44,886 nt of DNA. Origin: a virus. The position numbers and the translations under genes are program-made. Below are positions 1,705 through 40,729 of the stretch, piece after piece. The notes below the pieces were generated by a model. The model saw only the letters and a list, made by a program, of their open reading frames with translations. It was not told where the DNA came from and ran no database searches. Every line of letters begins with the position of its first letter. Position 1 is the first letter of the stretch. The DNA lies in IMG/VR virus record IMGVR_UViG_3300044712_000601, positions 1 through 44,886 of that record; one strand, given 5' to 3'.

Positions 1705-3381
<1,677 letters not shown>

Positions 3382-3385
3382 TTAG

Positions 3386-4285
3386 TTACTCATTTGTTTC
3401 TTCTGGTAATCGTTTGTCGACCAAACGTTCAGGACGAACTCGTTTTAATGAAACCGGACGTTGTAATTCAAAAATCCATCGAGGAAGTTTCTCTAAGATT
3501 ACATTTGCCCCATCTGCACTTTCTTTTCCCTTCTCCATTACCTCTGTAAGTTTAGTTCCTATTTCTGAAAACATTCCATGAAGTTCAGCAATATTTTTAT
3601 CACTAACTTCTTTTACATTTCCTACGATACCCTCCATCTCATGTACATTAGAAAATACCTTATCGTAAATCTGAGTCAATGTATCAATTGCCTCGAGTAA
3701 AGTTTGTTTTTTAGAATTCAAAGATTCTAGGACAACTTGTTCCCGTGAAACTTCGACTTCCAATTTAGATTTTTGTGATAGTAAATCAGAAACTTCAATA
3801 CCTACAACTTCTTTGTAGGCTTCTTCTGATTTATCCATCTCTTCCATCCGACCTTGAGCTTTGCTAATACGCGATTCAATATCTGAATTAGATTCAGATA
3901 GTTCTCTATTTTTCTTTTCGAGTGATTCTATTTCAGTTTTTAAATCTGCAATAGATTTTAGAAGTTGATCTCTTTGTGCAACCCAAGATTGTAAACCTAT
4001 ACTTTCTTCAGCTTTCAATATAGATTCTCTTAGAAGTTTTTCTTGTGTCGAAAGATTTACAATATTTTTTTGAATTTGAACTACATCACCAAGTAATTTC
4101 TTTCTTTCATCAATCCTACGGATAAGTTCATTTTCATCTTGTCGTAAATTAGGAATATTTTTCTCAAGTCGATTATTTTCTTCGACAAGATCTTTATTCT
4201 TTCTTTCGTTGATAAGAAGTTCCGCCAGCACAGAGTCTCGCTCAGCTTTCTCGGCTTTGAGTTGTTCTGGTGTTGGATATTCCAT
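3386..4285 (-). CDS. Coiled-coil structural protein
   Basis: 299 aa from the ATG at 4285 (MEYPTPEQLKAEK). An upstream in-frame TTG exists but overlaps the previous gene, and the ATG lies 5 nt after that gene's TAA. Residues about 8-190 are almost continuous heptad-like sequence rich in E, K, L, I and R, predicting a long coiled coil. A second helical stretch runs to about 280, followed by a basic tail (RPVSLKRVRPERLVDKR). No enzymatic motif is visible. It lies between the small beta-sandwich protein and the collagen-like fibre, so it could be a fibre-attachment, tail-needle or neck component. Function is not assigned. Confidence 0.7.
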   Translation of the reverse strand: MEYPTPEQLKAEKAERDSVLAELLINERKNKDLVEENNRLEKNIPNLRQDENELIRRIDERKKLLGDVVQIQKNIVNLSTQEKLLRESILKAEESIGLQSWVAQRDQLLKSIADLKTEIESLEKKNRELSESNSDIESRISKAQGRMEEMDKSEEAYKEVVGIEVSDLLSQKSKLEVEVSREQVVLESLNSKKQTLLEAIDTLTQIYDKVFSNVHEMEGIVGNVKEVSDKNIAELHGMFSEIGTKLTEVMEKGKESADGANVILEKLPRWIFELQRPVSLKRVRPERLVDKRLPEETNE

Positions 4286-4290
4286 AATTT

Positions 4291-4617
4291 TTAATATCTT
4301 AAAGAATAATGACAACTTCCATTGAATGTTCCACCAGTGACAACTAGAACAAAAGCTTCACCTGGTTTACATTCAAATCTAGGTCGGTTATCTTCACCCG
4401 GCTCATCTTGCAAGGTTAAACCTTGTCCATCCCCAAGTTCAAAGTAACCCAATTCGCGACTACCAGCTTTGACTGTAACAGTTCCAGAAGCTGAAAGGTC
4501 TCCTATAAGTTCATGGATATAAATCCATGCGTTTGATTCAGCGGCAATAATAGTATCAGTTCCAGCAGCTGCTGTAACTTTTATAGATATTTTGCGGCTA
4601 TGTGCATCTTGTAACAT
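4291..4617 (-). CDS. Small beta-rich virion protein
   Basis: 108 aa. The sequence alternates short beta-strand patterns: KISIKVTAAAGTDTIIAAESNAWIYIHELIGDLSASG followed by VTVKAGSR and AFVLVVTGGTFNGSCHYSLRY. This resembles the small beta-sandwich proteins often encoded beside phage capsid genes (ASGTVTVTFKSG-like core, then GEAF.L...G...VSG..TY). It follows the major capsid gene after a strong hairpin and has no Shine-Dalgarno sequence. Likely a head decoration or fibre-base protein; the exact role is unknown. Confidence 0.65.
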   Translation of the reverse strand: MLQDAHSRKISIKVTAAAGTDTIIAAESNAWIYIHELIGDLSASGTVTVKAGSRELGYFELGDGQGLTLQDEPGEDNRPRFECKPGEAFVLVVTGGTFNGSCHYSLRY

Positions 4618-4652
4618 TTTTTTTAATAATTAAATTAATAATAGAACAACTT

Positions 4653-4704
4653 CTACCTAATGAGGATCTCATCTTGTCGAATAAGATGAGATCCTGATAG
4701 GTAG
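4653..4704 (-). terminator. Strong hairpin after the capsid gene (terminator or processing site)
   Basis: A perfect 13-bp stem (4663-4675 with 4683-4695) with a 7-nt loop is extended by a 7-bp outer stem, CTACCTA (4653-4659) with TAGGTAG (4698-4704). It begins 8 nt after the capsid stop codon. No clear U-run follows on the minus strand. It may therefore be a partial terminator or an mRNA-stabilising element that raises capsid expression. A hairpin with the same flanks lies at 40336-40359. Confidence 0.6.
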
Positions 4705-7207: not shown

Positions 7208-7795
7208 CTAATTCTCTTCAAACTTTATCGTTGCAGCTACTCTTTTTAATCTCATTCTCAATGTGTCTAGGTTGACTGAACCTTCTCCTATGAAAGAGAT
7301 AGCGTGTTTATGGAAATCTCCAGGCATAGAATCATTTTGTACACCAATTTCTTGAGAATACTTCAATGGGACAATAACTATATACAATTCGCGGTCTCGC
7401 AATTTATAGAATAGGATTTTCTTTTTTGGATCAAAAGTCTTATTAAAGACTTCGAGTAAATCTTCACGATCCACAGGATATCCACAGGCTCTATTAAAAT
7501 ATGATGGAGCGTAAGTTACTTTACCATCTGTAGTTTTACCTGGCATGAAGTAATCTTTTTCATCTACATCATTACCAAAAACATCTTTTAAAACTAATGA
7601 GGATTTTACTAGATTCTTTTGTGCTTGTTCTTCAAGTTCTTCTTTTTTAGTAGATTCTTCTTTTAAAAAACTCTTCTTATCTTCGATCAAAGTAGCTATT
7701 GTATCAGCTGAATCATCTTCCTTAAATGGAACACCTAACTTAGTAGCTTCTTTTCGAACTTTATCTAAATTCTTCTCCTCTTCTGTCTTCGCCAT
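7208..7795 (-). CDS. Uncharacterised late protein, 195 aa
   Basis: Not recognised. The N-terminal third is charged and helical (EEEKNLDKVRKEATKLGVPFKEDD, then ATLIEDKKSF). The second half looks globular with mixed alpha/beta character, including YAPSYFNRACGYPVDREDL, KKILFYKLRDRELYIVIVPLKYS and a C-terminal VNLDTLRMRLKRVAATIKF. It is a minus-strand gene between the 157-aa protein and the scaffold. The position suggests a minor head-assembly or virion role, but nothing in the sequence proves it. A short hairpin (ATCCC/GGGAT) lies in its leader. Confidence 0.6.
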   Translation of the reverse strand: MAKTEEEKNLDKVRKEATKLGVPFKEDDSADTIATLIEDKKSFLKEESTKKEELEEQAQKNLVKSSLVLKDVFGNDVDEKDYFMPGKTTDGKVTYAPSYFNRACGYPVDREDLLEVFNKTFDPKKKILFYKLRDRELYIVIVPLKYSQEIGVQNDSMPGDFHKHAISFIGEGSVNLDTLRMRLKRVAATIKFEEN

Positions 7796-8548: not shown

Positions 8549-9064
8549 TTATGATGCGAATAATTTTCTCAAATTATCGTACTTTATTTTACCATCTTTT
8601 TCATGGATATAATAATAGGCTCCTTCAGTATTATCTACAAATTCACCATTTTTAATACGTTCTCTAATATCATCGACCATTTTATCAATCTGCTCTTTTT
8701 TCTTTTTAGATGGAGCATCCATTGGATTATAGTACTGTTGATATTGTGGACTATTATAAGCTTGATATTGATTAGGCATTGAAAATACTTCAGCTAGTGT
8801 TTTAGGTTTTCCGTGTGCGCCATAACCTTGCATTCTATTTAAACCAGTATTCATTATCACATTTGCCTCAAGCATTTGTTTATCAGCTGGTCGGTTACTT
8901 ATTTCACCATATAAAATTGGTTTAGCAGCCTCAAAATCTGCATCAGTTAATTTTACACCACGATCTTTTAAATAATACTCAGAGATTGGTTTAGGTGCAG
9001 GAGCAGTATACTCTACGGGAGAGAGTGCATTTTTTACTGATTTGTAAAGATTTCCAAGTCCCAT
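8549..9064 (-). CDS. Virion-associated cell-wall hydrolase, SleB-like
   Basis: 171 aa. The core from residue about 38 reads DADFEAAKPILYGEISNRP...EANVIMNTGLNRMQGYG...PKTLAEVFSMPNQYQAYN. This matches the SleB/Hydrolase_2 pattern: a catalytic Glu in the first helix, a V-x-x-V-I-x-N-R-like helix, then the loop before the residues equivalent to Q-F. The C-terminal TEGAYYYIHEKDGKI segment follows a lysine-rich linker. SleB-like enzymes cleave the glycan strand of peptidoglycan. Placed right after the portal gene, it is likely a virion-borne enzyme for DNA entry rather than the lysis enzyme, which is encoded elsewhere. It could be an inactive structural relative, because the Glu assignment is by eye. 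Confidence 0.55.
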   Translation of the reverse strand: MGLGNLYKSVKNALSPVEYTAPAPKPISEYYLKDRGVKLTDADFEAAKPILYGEISNRPADKQMLEANVIMNTGLNRMQGYGAHGKPKTLAEVFSMPNQYQAYNSPQYQQYYNPMDAPSKKKKEQIDKMVDDIRERIKNGEFVDNTEGAYYYIHEKDGKIKYDNLRKLFAS

Positions 9065-9065
9065 A

Positions 9066-11183
9066 TTATTGACCAGGGAAGAATGGTAAGTTTGCAGCGC
9101 GACCTAGACTTGCATCGGTGGCAGATCCCATTGGACTTTGTGGACGTGCAACTTGATTATCACCCTTTGGTGCAGTTAAGTCTGGGTTATCAGTTACTCC
9201 AGGAGTTCCGGTTGGCATTCCGTCTGGACCTATAGCAGGTACAATCGGAGATGGTTGTAAAGCTATGATAGCATCATATTGATCTTTTGGAATATAGTCA
9301 TAAATATCTTGTCGTTGAATATCCAACAATTGTTCCAGTGAACGTAATTGAGAAGCGGCAGCTTCAGGATCAGTTTTTCGTAAAGCGTAGATAACATTTA
9401 TTTGATTAGTTATCACAGGGAATAAGGCCATGTATGTTTGCTTTTGAATTTCCAATGATGGAAGCAACATTGAGTCTGGATCGATTATGATTTCTAAGTA
9501 GTCAGACTTATGACCATAAGTTTCCATTTCATTAAATAATTTTTTAGCCGAGATAGTTCTTGTTGGAACATTTTCTAACATCTCACCATCTGGTGTGAAA
9601 TCAAAATTTAATCGAAGATTTCGAGAAGCTAAAGCCATGTATTTACCAGTAGGTTGTTGTTCGTCATTTACAACTTCTTGAGACTCGATAAAGTAGTCTG
9701 GATTTTGTTTTGCAAATTCAGCTAATTTTCGGTCTGAATCAATCATAAATACTTTATCCAGTGGATATGTTTCTTTGATCCAAGATAATGCAATATGTGC
9801 ATCAGTTTGCAAAGCATTCATCATAGAATTCTTTGGAGGTGTTAGACGATTATATGCTGCTTCTTTTAGGATAACTGTAGATCCCAAAGTGTTTTCAGCA
9901 TTATTACCAGCAACGATATTGTTGATTCCGGTATTCTCTTCAATATCTTGTTTTTGCTTATCAGCATATGCAATACCTTGTTGAACATTACCTGTAGTTC
10001 GTACTACATCAATAGTAGTTCCAGGATTCTTTGGGTTAACATAGTTTGGACTTCGCTTGTATGTTGAAGTTCCATTTTGTACTTGAGGTCCGAAAAGAAG
10101 TGGGTAAATTTCTGCTTCAACTTGTTGAGCATTCAATGAGTTGATATAAGTATACATTGCTGTATTACCTCGCATCATTTCATACAATCCAACACCATAT
10201 GGATCATTCAAATCTTTAGCAAAACATCGTGCTACGAGCACTGATCCATAGCTATCATCGTTAGGCATTTCACCATCATAGATGACGAGTTTTCCACACT
10301 TGATTATAAATCGATTTAGTAAAACATTTTCATAATAACCAATAGTTACACTCAATCGAGATTTTTCTTGATTTTGGTCTTGCGCTTCAGTAGTAGTAGA
10401 ACAGTACTCTAGTTTGCGTTTATTCTTTTCTGCATCAGGATATTTAGCAAAGAACTCATCCTTAAGCATGTCTTTTTCATAATAGACTTCAAATTGTGAC
10501 CAGTAGTCACCCATAGTGAAGCCAACACCTAGCCAGGTTCGTTCTGGGTCTAGTGGTTCACGATAAATATCATCAAATAGGAGTTTATCCACACCCTTTC
10601 TTTTTACAGAAACTCGCTTAGGATATACCCGCCATGCCGCCCATCCACAGGTCAATAAGTTTTGGTACGTCAAGGACAAAGTATTCTCACCATTCGCTCC
10701 TTTGAGTGTCCATGTCCTTTTCCATAATTCATAAGCTGCACGAGCGTATATCTTGTCATCAGCCTCTACTCGAGCATCTGGTAATTTACCAGCAAGCACT
10801 GATGTAGCAATAAGAATCTTAGAAAAAGCAATAGGTTCCTGGGCTACAGGAACTCCGGATCTATTTTGGTCACGATCAGTAATTTTCTGGGGATAAATAT
10901 TATAATCGTATGCCCCGTTAGACATTTTATTATAAAAAACCATCGAGCCCCATCCGCTCGACTCATAAAGCTTCTGTCCGTAAGAGACATTAGTATTTAC
11001 TATGTTGTCCTTTATCTCTTTGTACAATGTATCGAACTTTTGTCGATACATAGACTTTTTCATATTCTTTTTCTTCTCATCAACGAAATTTACAGTATCT
11101 TTACTGGTGTCAACTGCTTTTTTAGGACTTGTTCCGTCATCAAGTGTTGGTTTACTATTTGTATCTAGTGAATCATCTTCCAT
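9066..11183 (-). CDS. Portal protein
   Basis: 705 aa, close to the P22-type portal in size. The N-terminal region is charged, followed by KSMYRQKFDTLYKEIKDNI and a SYGQKLYESSGWGSMVFYNKMSNGAYDYN segment. The middle contains repeated helix/loop patterns and NNAENTLGSTVILKEAAYNRLTPPKNSMMNA, a helix reminiscent of the portal clip/stem region. The C-terminus is low-complexity (IGPDGMPTGTPGVTDN...). It lies directly after terminase in the canonical order terminase-portal. The portal is the dodecameric DNA gate at one capsid vertex. A promoter-like element (11193-11221) ends 9 nt before its ATG. Confidence 0.85.
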   Translation of the reverse strand: MEDDSLDTNSKPTLDDGTSPKKAVDTSKDTVNFVDEKKKNMKKSMYRQKFDTLYKEIKDNIVNTNVSYGQKLYESSGWGSMVFYNKMSNGAYDYNIYPQKITDRDQNRSGVPVAQEPIAFSKILIATSVLAGKLPDARVEADDKIYARAAYELWKRTWTLKGANGENTLSLTYQNLLTCGWAAWRVYPKRVSVKRKGVDKLLFDDIYREPLDPERTWLGVGFTMGDYWSQFEVYYEKDMLKDEFFAKYPDAEKNKRKLEYCSTTTEAQDQNQEKSRLSVTIGYYENVLLNRFIIKCGKLVIYDGEMPNDDSYGSVLVARCFAKDLNDPYGVGLYEMMRGNTAMYTYINSLNAQQVEAEIYPLLFGPQVQNGTSTYKRSPNYVNPKNPGTTIDVVRTTGNVQQGIAYADKQKQDIEENTGINNIVAGNNAENTLGSTVILKEAAYNRLTPPKNSMMNALQTDAHIALSWIKETYPLDKVFMIDSDRKLAEFAKQNPDYFIESQEVVNDEQQPTGKYMALASRNLRLNFDFTPDGEMLENVPTRTISAKKLFNEMETYGHKSDYLEIIIDPDSMLLPSLEIQKQTYMALFPVITNQINVIYALRKTDPEAAASQLRSLEQLLDIQRQDIYDYIPKDQYDAIIALQPSPIVPAIGPDGMPTGTPGVTDNPDLTAPKGDNQVARPQSPMGSATDASLGRAANLPFFPGQ

Positions 11184-11390: not shown

Positions 11391-13111
11391 TGTTCTCCAA
11401 ACATTACTTTTGATAATGAAAACCCCTCACCAGATTGTACATCTCCAATGTATTTCCCTTGTTCTTGAAGAATTGCATATCCAATTGCGGCCGCCATCAC
11501 CACGTCGTCATTCTTCCCAGCTAGTGCTTCAGGTCGTCCTTTAGCATTTCTCAAAAATGTAATCATCTCTGTCAGCAATTGGGTTGGGAACCCTTCATTC
11601 TTTCTTAAAAATACTGCTTTCAAAGCAGCCAAGCAAAATGGCCTGGTAGAACTTGTAGTCTTCCAACCGAAAAACTTGGTAATGTTTTTCGTTATATCAT
11701 CAAATACCTTTCGATAATACAAATTAACATATCCCAATTTATCAAGCCCATCATTTACCCATAGCCCATCCTTGTTGGATTCTATACCCATCAATCCCCA
11801 GTTATAAAATTTCCCCACATTAAACGCATCTGTAATAAATTCATCAGGTGGAACATTCGATCGGTAAATTGCAGCACACTCCTCTGTCTTGTGATTTATA
11901 ACATATAAAACTTGGGCATCACCATGTGCCAATCCTTCTGCGGTATCCCCGCCTATAACATATTTCACTCCCGGTTCAGGTTTATTAAATATTTCCAATC
12001 GACCTGTGGATAATTCCTGAAAATACACATCCCCTTTTTCATTTCGTATAAGTTCCCCTCGCGTACCTTTCAATGGATTCTGAAGCATAGAAAAAACTTT
12101 CGATGTTGGAAAGTATGTCTGACCTGTCGATAAGAATGCCTCCTCTGGAGTCGTAGGATACTCCTGGTGCAATTTATGTACTGTATCTGTACCACTCTTC
12201 CCTCCGAGCTGTAACCACTTCATGTAGTAGTAAGTAATCTCCTTATCACTCAAGTTATGCTCCTTCTGATATTCCGCAAAGTCTATCTCACCAATTTCCA
12301 TTTGAGATACAGGAATAATTTCAGTGATCTTCTTCATTTCCATGTCGTCATACTGCCAGTTGTAAAAATGTGGCAGGAACATAACTCTGGATTTCATCCC
12401 GGATATCGTATCCCTCACAGCCCAGTTATCATGGAACATTTCATAAAATCTCCCGGCCATACCTTCCGCAGTACCTTCGATAAAAATAAATCCATCAAAA
12501 GGCACAGCTGGAAATGTACCAGTCTCCACCTCCATCGCGTTCTTTGGATACATAACACACATCTTCGCAAACTCCGAAATGTGCACATAAAAATAAGTTC
12601 CGGAACGTCCCGAACTTGAAACCTGAATAGAACTCGTAGACCCGGCATCCGGTCCATAATCCACCACCACCTGAATTTTCTTAGCCGAATTTCTTTGTAA
12701 TTTAAAATACGCCCCCTTAATCTCCTCCGCCATATTTCTTATCGCAAAATCAATTTTACGATCGAAAATCTCTCTCGCATCTTCCACCTTGTGCGCAACA
12801 ATCAATCCCTCCCGGTTAGAGTTAAAAAGTATTTCATCTAAAATGAATAAGTCGATAAAAGTAGTAAACCCCAGCTGACGACTTTTTAAAATAATATGCC
12901 GATGATATATATCCTTAGAATCCGAAAGATAGTTATCAAAAAAATGTCTCTGCGCACGATTCATCTGGAACAGTTCTTTTGTTCCATCCTTAGTAATAAT
13001 CCAGTATAAATTGCACATCCTCCACAGCTTGTTTTTTATCAAGTCTGGGTTTGCCACTAGCTCATTAATGATCCGTTCATTATGCGCCTTCTGTCTTGTA
13101 AAATCAGACAT
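11387..13111 (-). CDS. terL: Terminase large subunit (packaging ATPase and nuclease)
   Basis: 574 aa. ATPase domain: the Walker A-like KSRQLGFTT is at residues 76-84 (the RQxG(F)(S/T)T variant used by many terminases). The Walker B-like FYVHISE, with acidic E180, is followed by the coupling motif GTA at 213-215. RNase H-like nuclease domain: D389 in YVIGGDTAEG, E444 in MGIESNKDG and D535/D536 in GKNDDVVMA form the metal-binding triad. It pumps DNA into the procapsid through the portal and cuts concatemers. The ATG overlaps the last base of the small-subunit TAA, indicating coupling. All key residues are present. Confidence 0.95.
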   Translation of the reverse strand: MSDFTRQKAHNERIINELVANPDLIKNKLWRMCNLYWIITKDGTKELFQMNRAQRHFFDNYLSDSKDIYHRHIILKSRQLGFTTFIDLFILDEILFNSNREGLIVAHKVEDAREIFDRKIDFAIRNMAEEIKGAYFKLQRNSAKKIQVVVDYGPDAGSTSSIQVSSSGRSGTYFYVHISEFAKMCVMYPKNAMEVETGTFPAVPFDGFIFIEGTAEGMAGRFYEMFHDNWAVRDTISGMKSRVMFLPHFYNWQYDDMEMKKITEIIPVSQMEIGEIDFAEYQKEHNLSDKEITYYYMKWLQLGGKSGTDTVHKLHQEYPTTPEEAFLSTGQTYFPTSKVFSMLQNPLKGTRGELIRNEKGDVYFQELSTGRLEIFNKPEPGVKYVIGGDTAEGLAHGDAQVLYVINHKTEECAAIYRSNVPPDEFITDAFNVGKFYNWGLMGIESNKDGLWVNDGLDKLGYVNLYYRKVFDDITKNITKFFGWKTTSSTRPFCLAALKAVFLRKNEGFPTQLLTEMITFLRNAKGRPEALAGKNDDVVMAAAIGYAILQEQGKYIGDVQSGEGFSLSKVMFGEQ

Positions 13112-14449: not shown

Positions 14450-14651
14450 ATATATTTACCCGGGGGTACTCGTGAAGGGGCTATCCCCCCCCCGGCCGTC
14501 TATCCGTCGCGCCTAAAAATCCTCCCCGTTTTCCCTCAAAAATCTACTAAGCCCGGCCTTAGCCTATATCACCCACAAATATGCCAAAACTGGTCAATTA
14601 TCCTACCTGACCTTTTCAAAAAACATCACCAAAAGATGGCAATGGTGGCGG

Positions 14652-14958
14652 GTGGCAGGACTTTTTATAAAGTCTTTCACTTTTTAAAATAATTTCTGTA
14701 GAACTTTATGTCAAAATATGTGCCACCCTGCCACCACGATTTTTAGAAATGTCAAATATCCTTATTTTACAAGGGTCAAAAAGAAAAAAATCACGGTGGC
14801 AGGAAAAGTGGCAGGAAAGTGGCAGGAAAATCTGCCACCAAAAATATCCTTATTTTACAAGGGGGCGGTTTTTTCCTGCCACCAGAGCCCCTCCCGGCCA
14901 CCCCTCCCTTTTCTGTAAAAAGGTGGCACATCCCCCCTCCTGCCACCCGTCCTGCCAC
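14652..14958. repeat. Array of GTGGCAGG motifs in both orientations
   Basis: Perfect GTGGCAGG occurs at 14652, 14796, 14808 and 14819. Its complement CCTGCCAC occurs at 14727, 14875, 14939 and 14951. Near matches are at 14645 and 14831. Eight perfect copies in 307 non-coding bases cannot reflect coding constraint. Likely a cooperative protein-binding array for replication or for the early/late switch. Confidence 0.7.
14754..14863. repeat. 22-bp direct repeat with internal dyad (two copies)
   Basis: Identical 22-bp copies lie at 14754-14775 and 14842-14863. Inside each, CCTTAT and ACAAGG form an imperfect dyad around TTT, as in an operator. The copies are 88 bp apart and bracket the three clustered forward GTGGCAGG motifs. 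Confidence 0.65.
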
Positions 14959-15000
14959 CACCACCTAAAAAAATTCCCGTCCTACCTTATAGCCTTTGAT

Positions 15001-15740: not shown

Positions 15741-15902
15741 ATGCAACCAAAACAAAAACAAAACCGCAAAGCAACCCCGTGGACTATTGAACCAAACGCG
15801 CGCCGGTTTCATTATTGGCGGGGGTTCATAGTTGGCGGTATAGTAGCCGGTGGGCTTATGTTTATTATCATGGCCAATATAGTGATATATGTGGCTCGAT
15901 AA
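15741..15902 (+). CDS. Small single-span membrane protein, 53 aa
   Basis: MQPKQKQNRKATPWTIEPN begins a basic cytoplasmic tail, followed by a transmembrane segment FIVGGIVAGGLMFIIMANIVIYV (residues about 29-51). It ends ARstop. It starts 10 nt after the preceding stop. One of several tiny membrane proteins in the early arm. Function unknown. Confidence 0.5.
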   Translation: MQPKQKQNRKATPWTIEPNARRFHYWRGFIVGGIVAGGLMFIIMANIVIYVAR

Positions 15903-26703: not shown

Positions 26704-26880
26704 ATGAAATATGAACCAGGGAAAAAAGTTAAACATATACTCACTGGAGAATTATTATTACTTCTCCCTACTGATGGTTATAGGGTCACTCTAATTCCAC
26801 AAATTAGAGTTAGAACAACAGACTATAAAGAGTTATGGTTAGACGCATGTGAAGTGGAAGAATTAGATTTTGGTCATTAA
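26704..26880 (+). CDS. DUF2158/YodC-like small protein, 58 aa
   Basis: Begins MKYEPGKKVKHILTGELLLL and ends DYKELWLDACEVEELDFGH. The small beta-barrel pattern (GKKVKHxLTGE..., R..DYKE.WL....E.EE) is like YodC-type proteins found widely in phages and plasmids. Its role is unknown. The downstream 382 nt are non-coding and contain the three-domain RNA. Confidence 0.5.
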   Translation: MKYEPGKKVKHILTGELLLLLPTDGYRVTLIPQIRVRTTDYKELWLDACEVEELDFGH

Positions 26881-26891
26881 AAACAAAATAG

Positions 26892-27216
26892 AAAGTGTGT
26901 CGGTGGGGGAACAAAGACTCAGAACAAAGGACTGGGTTTTCCCTGGTCGGCGAGAATCTTAGTGTTCGCTTCCCCACAGGCACATTTTTACAAAGGTTAG
27001 AGTGGTTCAAGCCGAGAGACAGTTTAGTGAATTTCTAGAATAGTAGCTAAACACCAGAAAGATAAGTCCGCAAGACCCTTTCTGCTCGGCTTAAGCCACT
27101 TTAACCACCAAGGAAGATAGAATAACTGCGATTGAAGGATATTGCGGAAATAATCAATACTGCAGACTGGGCAACCATATATACAAGTCCATTCAATCCA
27201 GTTTCCTGTCTTTCTT
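26892..27216 (+). ncRNA. Putative three-domain structured RNA
   Basis: The 382-nt gap after 26880 has no ORF but folds by eye into three adjacent closed domains. D1 (26892-26988): a 10-bp and an 8-bp helix segment around one G-A mismatch, plus two inner hairpins. D2 (26995-27106): a 22-position stem (26995-27016 with 27085-27106, one C-A mismatch) enclosing hairpins GTTTAG/CTAAAC and CAGAAAG/CTTTCTG. D3 (27110-27216): an 11-bp stem, then 5+7 bp with one bulge, then inner stems including TGG-GCAA-CCA. At least seven pairs are G-U in the plus strand. It could be a trans-acting RNA or the 5' leader of the next gene. Confidence 0.7.
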
Positions 27217-27262
27217 GAAGAGATTATTAGAATAACAGCTCGCAACTTACTGCGGAATAAAA

Positions 27263-28006
27263 ATGTTTACTAAAAAATGTGAGTATTGTGATGAAATTCA
27301 TAAAGATAATAATACAGGTTGTAGCAACTCTGGCAACTGCAACTCTGGCGACTGCAACTCTGGCTACTGCAACTCTGGCAACCGCAACTCTGGCGACTGC
27401 AACTCTGGCTACTGCAACTCTGGCAACCGCAACTCTGGCAACTACAACTCTGGCAACTACAACTCTGGCTACCGCAACTCTGGCTACTACAACTCTGGCT
27501 ACTACAACTCTGGCAACTACAACTCTGGCAACTACAACTCTGGCAACTACAACTCTGGCAACTACAACTCTGGCTACCGCAACTCTGGCTACTACAACTC
27601 TGGCTACTACAACTCTGGCTGGTTCAATACAAACGAACCTAAAATGCGTTTCTTTAATAAAGATAGTGATGTTACATATTCTGAATTTTCTAAAAACAGA
27701 ATAGTTTACCCAGCCCTAAAAATCTGTGCTTGGGTAGACCTAAATGACCTACCAAAATCTGAACAATCAGAAAGTGCTAAGCAAATGGGAGGGCTACTCA
27801 AAACTCTAACCTACAAAGAAGCGTGGGCAGAATATTGGAATCGTGCTAGTGAAGAAGATAAAAAGTGGTTTGAGAATCTACCAAACTTCGATGCGACTAT
27901 CTTTGAAGAAATAACTGGTATTAAAGTAAACGCTCCACAATCCCTTTCAGGAAAAGAAGTAGAAGTTAAATTAGATGGAGTAACTTATAAGGCGATTATA
28001 AAGTAG
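27263..28006 (+). CDS. Pentapeptide-repeat protein
   Basis: 247 aa. CSNSGNCNSGDCNSGYCNSG begins 20 five-residue repeats (N-S-G-x-x, x mostly Tyr, Asn, Arg, Cys) at residues about 22-121, the glycine/asparagine type of pentapeptide repeat that forms a right-handed beta-helix. The C-terminal domain (about 125-247) begins MRFFNKDSDVTYSEFSKNR and ends with a beta-rich SLSGKEVEVKLDGVTYKAIIK. DNA-mimic pentapeptide proteins bind gyrase, but this subtype is better known from secreted or structural proteins, so function is open. It starts 46 nt after the structured RNA. Confidence 0.75.
   Translation: MFTKKCEYCDEIHKDNNTGCSNSGNCNSGDCNSGYCNSGNRNSGDCNSGYCNSGNRNSGNYNSGNYNSGYRNSGYYNSGYYNSGNYNSGNYNSGNYNSGNYNSGYRNSGYYNSGYYNSGWFNTNEPKMRFFNKDSDVTYSEFSKNRIVYPALKICAWVDLNDLPKSEQSESAKQMGGLLKTLTYKEAWAEYWNRASEEDKKWFENLPNFDATIFEEITGIKVNAPQSLSGKEVEVKLDGVTYKAIIK
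27326..27625 (+). repeat. 15-bp tandem repeat array in the pentapeptide gene
   Basis: Twenty units of 15 bp with the fixed core AACTCTGGC and a variable second half (NAYYRC-like; last unit degenerate). They encode the NSGxx repeats in frame. Near-identical units allow copy-number change by slippage or recombination. Confidence 0.9.
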
Positions 28007-28031
28007 GATTATTAGAATAACAATAAAAGAT

Positions 28032-29188: not shown

Positions 29189-29746
29189 ATGAAGAAAATT
29201 AAAACAATATTTGAAAGAGAAAATGGAAGAGTTGTGCCAAAAGTAGTTGCTGGCGTTTCTTTAGAAATGCTTGCCTTAGATAGAACTGTGAAAGCCACCG
29301 AGAAACTAGATGGTATGAACGTGCGAGTTACTGTGCGTAGTGGTACTTGTGTGAGGTTAGAAAAACGTAGAAATCCCGACAAGATACAAAAATATAAAGG
29401 TATTATTGAGCCTTGGTATGTAGATACAGCTATTTCTAGCGAAGACAAATGGCTCAATGACGCACTTGCAAATACTGACCTAACACAGCTACCAGACGGT
29501 GAATGGAGTGGTGAAGCCCTAGGCACTAATATTCAAGGAAATCCTTTAAACTTACCAACAAATCGCATTGTATTCTTTACGCTAGGCCAAGCACCCATAT
29601 TTGATAATGTACCCACTACTTACGAAGAATTGAAAGATTGGTTACCGAAGCAAAAATCAAAGTACGGCAATGACTGTGGTATTGAAGGAATAGTGTGGCA
29701 TTGTGAAAATGGTGAAATGTATAAAATTAAAACTAAGGATTTTTAG
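29189..29746 (+). CDS. RNA ligase
   Basis: 185 aa. Nucleotidyltransferase motifs in order: I = TEKLDGMNVRV (lysine nucleophile K39 in KLDG); III = DGEWSGEALG (about 103-112); IV = GIEGIVWH (E166); V = YKIKTKDF (K179, K181). This is the DRB0094/Rnl2-like ligase layout without an added C-terminal domain. It joins RNA ends using ATP and in phages often repairs tRNAs cut by host defence nucleases. No kinase/phosphatase partner is visible here. The ATG is preceded by AGGAGG. An overlapping 19-codon frame begins at 29143. Confidence 0.85.
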   Translation: MKKIKTIFERENGRVVPKVVAGVSLEMLALDRTVKATEKLDGMNVRVTVRSGTCVRLEKRRNPDKIQKYKGIIEPWYVDTAISSEDKWLNDALANTDLTQLPDGEWSGEALGTNIQGNPLNLPTNRIVFFTLGQAPIFDNVPTTYEELKDWLPKQKSKYGNDCGIEGIVWHCENGEMYKIKTKDF

Positions 29747-40316: not shown

Positions 40317-40335
40317 GTTTTTAATCTACCCAATA

Positions 40336-40359
40336 AGGTCCTCGGATAACCGAGGACCT
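40336..40359 (-). terminator. Hairpin after the collagen-like protein gene
   Basis: AGGTCCTCGG (40336-40345) pairs with CCGAGGACCT (40350-40359) around ATAA: 10 perfect bp. On the minus strand it is followed by TTATTGGGTAGA, very like the TCATTAGGTAGA after the capsid-gene hairpin. No clear U-run. It sits between the collagen-like gene and the propeller gene. Confidence 0.55.
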
Positions 40360-40369
40360 GATGGAAAGA

Positions 40370-40729
40370 CTAAGCTGGACCAGTGTAACCTGTGTAACCA
40401 GTATAACCTGTATAGCCAGTAGCACCTGTAGCACCAGCGGCACCTGTAGCACCAGTGTAACCAGTATAACCGGTTGGTCCTGTGGGACCTGTAGAACCGA
40501 CTACAGAAGCTGTCCATTCTGGCACAGCTGTTGTTCCAGAGTTAACATAGTTTCCTGCCGCAGTACCCGCAAGGATAATCAAATTTGCATTTGGTTCAAA
40601 GATACCTGCATAAGTTGATCCATCTGGAGTAGCTGATGCAGAATCGATTGAAGCATCCAGTACCAATTGTGTAGCTGGATGAGCAGAAAGTATGTTCATC
40701 AATGAAATTCTTGGTTGTGTGTAACCCAT
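40370..40729 (-). CDS. Collagen-like protein, 119 aa
   Basis: From the ATG at 40729 ([20 protein letters not shown]); the longer frame overlaps the upstream gene and lacks support. The first 75 residues are globular ([34 protein letters not shown]), followed by about 40 residues of Gly-X-Y ([20 protein letters not shown]...) that end the protein. It could be a head decoration fibre, because its hairpin and small size recall highly expressed virion proteins. Start ATG has no Shine-Dalgarno sequence. Confidence 0.65.

Follow-up and report, generated by a model that had tools for sequence, protein, structure and literature searches.

Between two genes of a virus lies a stretch that folds strongly and holds no convincing open reading frame (ORF), and it raises the question of whether it makes a separate RNA or the 5′ leader of the pentapeptide-repeat gene downstream. 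The stretch belongs to IMG/VR virus record IMGVR_UViG_3300044712_000601, all 44,886 nt of which are referred to here as the window. It occupies 26892-27216 (+), hereafter the block, inside a gap (26881-27262) bounded by the stop codon of a 58-aa ORF (26704-26880) and the ATG of the pentapeptide gene (27263). From what was established computationally, namely structure, strand, covariation in the third domain, the order of modules, the lack of a conserved frame, one copy per record and varied neighbours, the block is probably a tight array of three small noncoding phage RNAs (D1, D2 and D3), each folding on its own, which may act in trans; D3 belongs to a newly identified, conserved RNA motif of phages.

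Predicted fold of the block

A sequence-only reading had described an ORF-free gap folding by hand into three closed domains. A convincing ORF was indeed not found in the gap, where the only candidates are a 47-aa ORF with a GTG start and, in antisense, ORFs 66 and 73 aa long, and the MFE fold of the block matches the hand fold, with spacers of 6 and 3 nt between the domains and with the stems that had been claimed for each of them (Table 1). Its energy of -121.4 kcal/mol, compared with -78.1 +/- 4.9 kcal/mol for dinucleotide shuffles, gives z = -8.88, far from zero; the reverse complement gives -3.93 in the same test. At least seven G-U pairs had been counted in favor of a plus-strand transcript, an assignment that agrees with the 13 G-U pairs among 110 in the computed fold and with the z values of the two strands. 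Folded singly, D1, D2 and D3 reach -4.2, -5.0 and -4.9 on the plus strand and -2.8, -3.7 and -1.5 in antisense (D2 taken as 26995-27103 and D3 as 27107-27216, with ends 3 nt off). Elsewhere in the record, 325-nt segments have a mean z of -0.74 (sd 1.41; 345 of 400 folded), the lowest being -6.6 at inverted-repeat DNA near 14626 and the next comparable one -5.4 at 15751. The block is a plus-strand region with structure far beyond chance. A promoter or terminator that stands out was not found in the array (26892-27216).

Table 1. Positions of the block, its parts and the neighboring genes in the window.
Feature	Position	Strand	Basis
D1, closed rod, 97 nt	26892..26988	+	MFE fold: 10 bp, one mismatch, 8 bp, apical hairpin
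D2, closed rod, 112 nt	26995..27106	+	MFE fold: 13+8 bp around C-A mismatch, then three-way junction with two hairpins
D3, 107 nt, member of conserved three-way-junction motif	27110..27216	+	11 bp, bulged helix, GG[GCAA]CC mini-hairpin
D3 core in models R1/R2	27124-27203	+	covariance models
D3 conserved apical loop AATAATCAATA	27149..27159	+	common to window and L015; invariant in nine other members (part of loop forced by search patterns)
Pentapeptide gene leader segment including CAGCTCGCAACTTACTGCGGAATAAAA	27222..27262	+	88% identical in L015 (blastn, regex)
Pentapeptide-repeat gene	27263..28006	+	Pfam Pentapeptide_2 E 2.6e-20; phrog_14105
RNA ligase gene, 2 kb downstream	29189..29746	+	phrog_14301 E 2e-14; Pfam RLIG1 E 3e-11

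The block had not been recognized as a known class, and comparison of the window with 4227 Rfam 15 families, GOLLD and ROOL included, likewise produced no match at the gathering threshold. Neither tRNA nor tmRNA was found in the window (ARAGORN, Rfam), nor any match to the Rfam self-cleaving ribozyme families. Rfam matches at relaxed E were discarded as chance, among them the one in the window, an implausible human lncRNA (E = 1.4).

Two further features of the window concern other regions. Between the leftward structural and the rightward early genes, 14640-14960 carries repeated GGTGGCAGG / CCTGCCACC units in both orientations, with strong folds on both strands, and looks like an iteron-type replication origin. 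Structural genes contain collagen-like GYTGYTGP repeats at 1705-3381 and 40321-40480 (-), and the strong fold near 40321 is due to the GYTGYTGP repeat together with a terminator-like hairpin.

A conserved motif in D3

Judged by its homologs, D3 is a member of a previously uncatalogued conserved phage RNA motif. The motif was identified in ten records besides the window: L030, L031, L032 (= L015), L033, L035, L036, L037, L038, L040 and L060. The last is a MAG contig that carries terminase genes, and the other nine are viral contigs. Viral and genome contigs were searched with a gapped pattern and then with the 17-mer CCGAATAATCAATAAGG, and matches were kept as members after each had been folded and scored with covariance models (R1, R2). 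Among the 17-mer matches, 9 of 11 in viral contigs and 1 of 24 in genome contigs proved to be true members; the signal therefore does not lie in the 17-mer by itself, and the motif is an essentially viral one. The matches in L034, L039, L041-L059 and L061-L064 lacked P1/P2 and were dropped, some of them scoring 20-27 bits with R2 through the loop alone. R2 also detected a divergent D3 with loop GACGAAUAA in L007 and a structural relative with a different P3 in L029. D3 occurs in a single copy per record (whole-record search). The D3 of the window scores 65.3 bits with R2 (E 7.7e-14), its own sequence being among the model's members, and it shows the P1, P2 and P3 pairing, the GG/CC at P2 and the loop AAUAAUCAAUA by which the motif is defined.

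Searches further afield were negative. Two D3 queries of the phage record collection yielded chance matches only, as did the whole block (best E 0.4 in 50,697 phage records and 1 in 72,556 plasmids); a Priestia plasmid match was rejected as chance. In a host search, 297 genomes from the same order as the L060 MAG (most listed at 0.4-1.0 Mb) yielded no further D3, and the window's terminase matched 1 of 148. A 12-nt complement of the D3 loop did not occur at any other place in the fetched loci, and the loop string AAUAAUCAAUAA had no occurrence in the literature searched. At the Rfam 15 gathering threshold, L030-L033 gave no match, and L034-L038, L040 and L060 matched tmRNA only, outside the motif.

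The motif consists of a long outer helix, P1 with AUUG/CAAU, P2 starting with GG/CC, a variable P4 hairpin and a three-way junction. After P1 comes either an internal loop (GUK/CGU-like) or, in five members with the window among them, a bulged A (GAAGG/CCAUUC), and P3 closes the loop GAAUAAUCAAUAA. The window and L015, which were paired via a neighboring protein and independently of the motif, share 11 nt of this loop; its invariance in the nine other members is to be read with caution because the search patterns forced part of it. The pieces conserved between the window and L015 are GATTGAAGG, AATAATCAATA and AAGTCCATTCAATCC, and the helices around them differ in sequence and remain paired.

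Covariation, proposed earlier as a check on the RNA, is present in the homologs of D3. In alignment A4 of 11 members, 96.7% of cells pair, compared with 73.9% after shuffling, and 14 of 20 base pairs have two-sided compensatory changes. The covariation score is 0.606 vs. 0.165 in shuffles, none of 500 of which matched it, and at most 0.101 with slid partners. A4 was made with a covariance model and is thus fitted to the structure, so the count was repeated on a plain MAFFT alignment (A2) of the five bulged-A members, where 8 pairs show two-sided changes (1 of 500 shuffles) and the score is 0.390 vs. 0.124. Unconstrained folding of single sequences returned the same junction in nearly all members; L040 (z -0.8) and L060 (z -1.7) are weak relative to shuffles.

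Separable modules and varied neighbors

The phage L015 was found by a search with the C-terminal part of the pentapeptide protein. Upstream of its homologous pentapeptide gene are two closed RNA domains, a D3 homolog and then a D1 homolog at 4539-4633, whose outer helix carries three two-sided changes; D2 is absent, and the order is reversed relative to the window. Model R3, built for D1, scores high at the window and L015 only, and the 11 matches to a D1 pattern in viral contigs, L032 (= L015) excepted, lay inside genes or lacked the structure. A homolog of D2 was not found, an exact 19-mer having no match in viral contigs. D3 occurs without recognizable D1 or D2 in the nine other records, and this, together with D1 following D3 in L015, indicates that the domains are separable modules. 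Since D2 has no homolog and D1 has one, the modular reading rests mainly on D3. The three domains first described thus stand, and a single fixed three-domain RNA does not, given the D3-only records and the D3-D1 order in L015. In the syntenic phages L002 and L003, found via a 170-aa neighbor, the RNA block, the RNA ligase and the pentapeptide gene are all missing, which marks this genome region as exchangeable.

The neighbors of D3 vary as well. The pentapeptide gene adjoins it in the window and L015 only, and other members lie beside terminase, tmRNA or various other genes. For example, L036 has TerL upstream, D3 at 2762-2843, a tmRNA at 2846-3220 (2-3 nt downstream of D3) and then tRNA-Tyr; TerS/TerL lie downstream of D3 in L060, and TerL is near it in L031. 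The L036 tmRNA was identified by Rfam (RF00023, 73.8 bits) and missed by ARAGORN. In L033, one closing helix encloses D3 and a tRNA-like element, and in L030 and L035 D3 is part of longer folded noncoding stretches of about 750 nt and 466 nt, respectively. These two viral contigs alone contain a second module, at 11961-11990 (-) in L030 and 7629-7658 (+) in L035, in which GGCGUGGC precedes a covarying stem, capped by the self-complementary loop CUAGCUAG, and GUGUC comes last; this module is absent from the window. Folded RNAs that recall T4 rnaC, with a T-arm-like 3′ part, acceptor-like ends and an odd, enlarged middle, were observed in L033 (about 828-925, -), L027 (6000-6230), L020 (2280-2520) and L007 (5395-5820); ARAGORN, whose scan covered L033, made no call on the one there.

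An RNA ligase cassette had been suggested beside the block. The ligase gene is real, and it lies 2 kb downstream; among ten fetched loci of ligase homologs D3 occurs in L007 only, in its divergent form and 0.9 kb upstream of the ligase. The ligase is a neighbor of the block, with a weak link to it by neighborhood only.

Other observations concern the pentapeptide gene. It is bracketed by a 16-nt direct repeat, GATTATTAGAATAACA, at 27222-27237 and 28007-28022, with a near-copy between genes in L015 at about 3946-3962; the repeat is possibly a cassette-exchange boundary or a shared translation-start context. The phages L016, L026, L029 and L019 have the C-terminal part of the gene in common, and all four contain strong noncoding folds (z about -4.5 to -8) at 4565-4675, 330-920, 8900-9380 and 1270-1760, respectively; except for the D3-like element in L029, none of these folds matches D1-D3.

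Alternative explanations

Of the two options left by the sequence-only reading, a 5′ leader for the pentapeptide gene or an independent RNA, the latter is now favored. As a leader, the domains and the segment 27222-27262 would form one long UTR that controls the gene by sensing or by stabilizing the mRNA. In both the window and L015 the folded domains do lie directly upstream of the gene, with good conservation between the two in the ~40 nt that lead up to the ATG (Table 1), and the homologous gene of L016 also follows a closed RNA rod, though a different one (z -6.6); structured domains ahead of this gene in L015 and L016 too count against an array of separate RNAs, since a role in cis could explain them. 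Against a leader, the fit is confined to the window and L015: no pentapeptide gene was seen adjoining D3 in nine other records, in one of which it sits just before tmRNA, the folds upstream of the L014 and L023 homologs are weak, and the swapped order of D1 and D3 is unusual for a riboswitch. The varied neighbors make a leader role of D3 specific to the pentapeptide gene unlikely, and we consider control of that gene by the block as a whole unlikely as well. It is rather improbable that the domains are parts of one large, GOLLD/ROOL-like scaffold RNA that self-assembles into a particle, with the modules as interchangeable arms. Such a scaffold could account for the longer folded stretches in L030 and L035 and for the self-complementary loop of their second module, which resembles kissing loops, and GOLLD and ROOL are themselves phage RNAs often located near tRNA islands (PMC12286853); however, Rfam gave no match to either, the block in the window is just 325 nt long and shares no architecture beyond D3, and the self-complementary module is missing from it.

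The compact three-way junction with its conserved loop, and the position of D3 just 5′ of the tmRNA in L036, would also suit a self-cleaving ribozyme or a processing signal that separates neighboring RNAs. The tmRNA-adjacent position is seen in one member only, D3 stands at opposite ends of the array in the window and L015, and no Rfam 15 ribozyme family matched, all of which would make this role very unlikely. That the conserved stretch encodes a short peptide (...CRIINKA...) instead of being an RNA is scarcely credible. In 7 of 11 members the frame that crosses the loop has no stop, and in most it reads CRIINKA or RRIINKA, but conserved sequence and chance together would give as much; L032 (= L015) and L035 have stops in all frames, the window, L036 and L060 have 1-nt indels between P2 and the loop, and the helices change on both sides. 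A conserved frame across homologs, which the earlier reading had named as evidence against an RNA, was not found, and D3 fits a conserved RNA sequence lacking one.

An array of three small noncoding RNAs would be transcribed together with the surrounding plus-strand genes, and the transcript may either stay whole or be processed at the short linkers, which would leave stable RNAs about 100 nt long (compare phage tRNA clusters and T4 rnaC/rnaD). These RNAs would act in trans, and the conserved D3 loop on its covarying stem may be a site for protein binding, for docking inside the RNA or for pairing with another RNA. More tentatively, and with our judgment nearly balanced, D3 could found a new class of small trans-acting phage RNA. 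It would pass as an exchangeable module between unrelated phages, use its conserved loop to bind a single partner common to them, and reside in RNA islands where modules of this kind are mixed with tRNA-like RNAs and tmRNA.

Comparison with known phage RNAs

D3 offers a handle on the stable phage RNAs of unknown purpose, such as T4 rnaC/rnaD, GOLLD and ROOL: its motif is short and supported by covariation, has a conserved loop, occurs once per record and already has a covariance model, so that the loop could serve as bait for a binding partner and the module could be deleted. The findings also suggest that phage noncoding RNA islands are built from exchangeable domains, like phage proteins.

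The nearest parallels are T4 rnaC/rnaD in anatomy and GOLLD and ROOL in setting. We know of no function for T4 rnaC/rnaD (species 1 and 2 stable RNAs). They are, as the domains of the block are predicted to be, small structured phage RNAs in tandem; they measure 139 and 119 nt and lie 6 nt apart and 1 nt from a tRNA gene. They are not homologous to the block: R2 scores rnaC at 6.2 bits and does not detect rnaD, and R3 scores rnaC at 3.4 bits. In addition, rnaC ends in a tRNA-like T arm, whereas D1-D3 lack one and the window lacks a tRNA. Phages and prophages encode GOLLD and ROOL, large and ornate noncoding RNAs of unknown function (PMC12286853); the block is much shorter, with no pseudoknotted architecture predicted and no Rfam match to either in the window or the member loci. 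Orphan structured RNA motifs from comparative genomics (e.g., PMC2864571) resemble D3 in conserved structure, covariation and the absence of an assigned function, whereas D3, which has no Rfam 15 match, differs in being one module of mixed multi-domain phage arrays.
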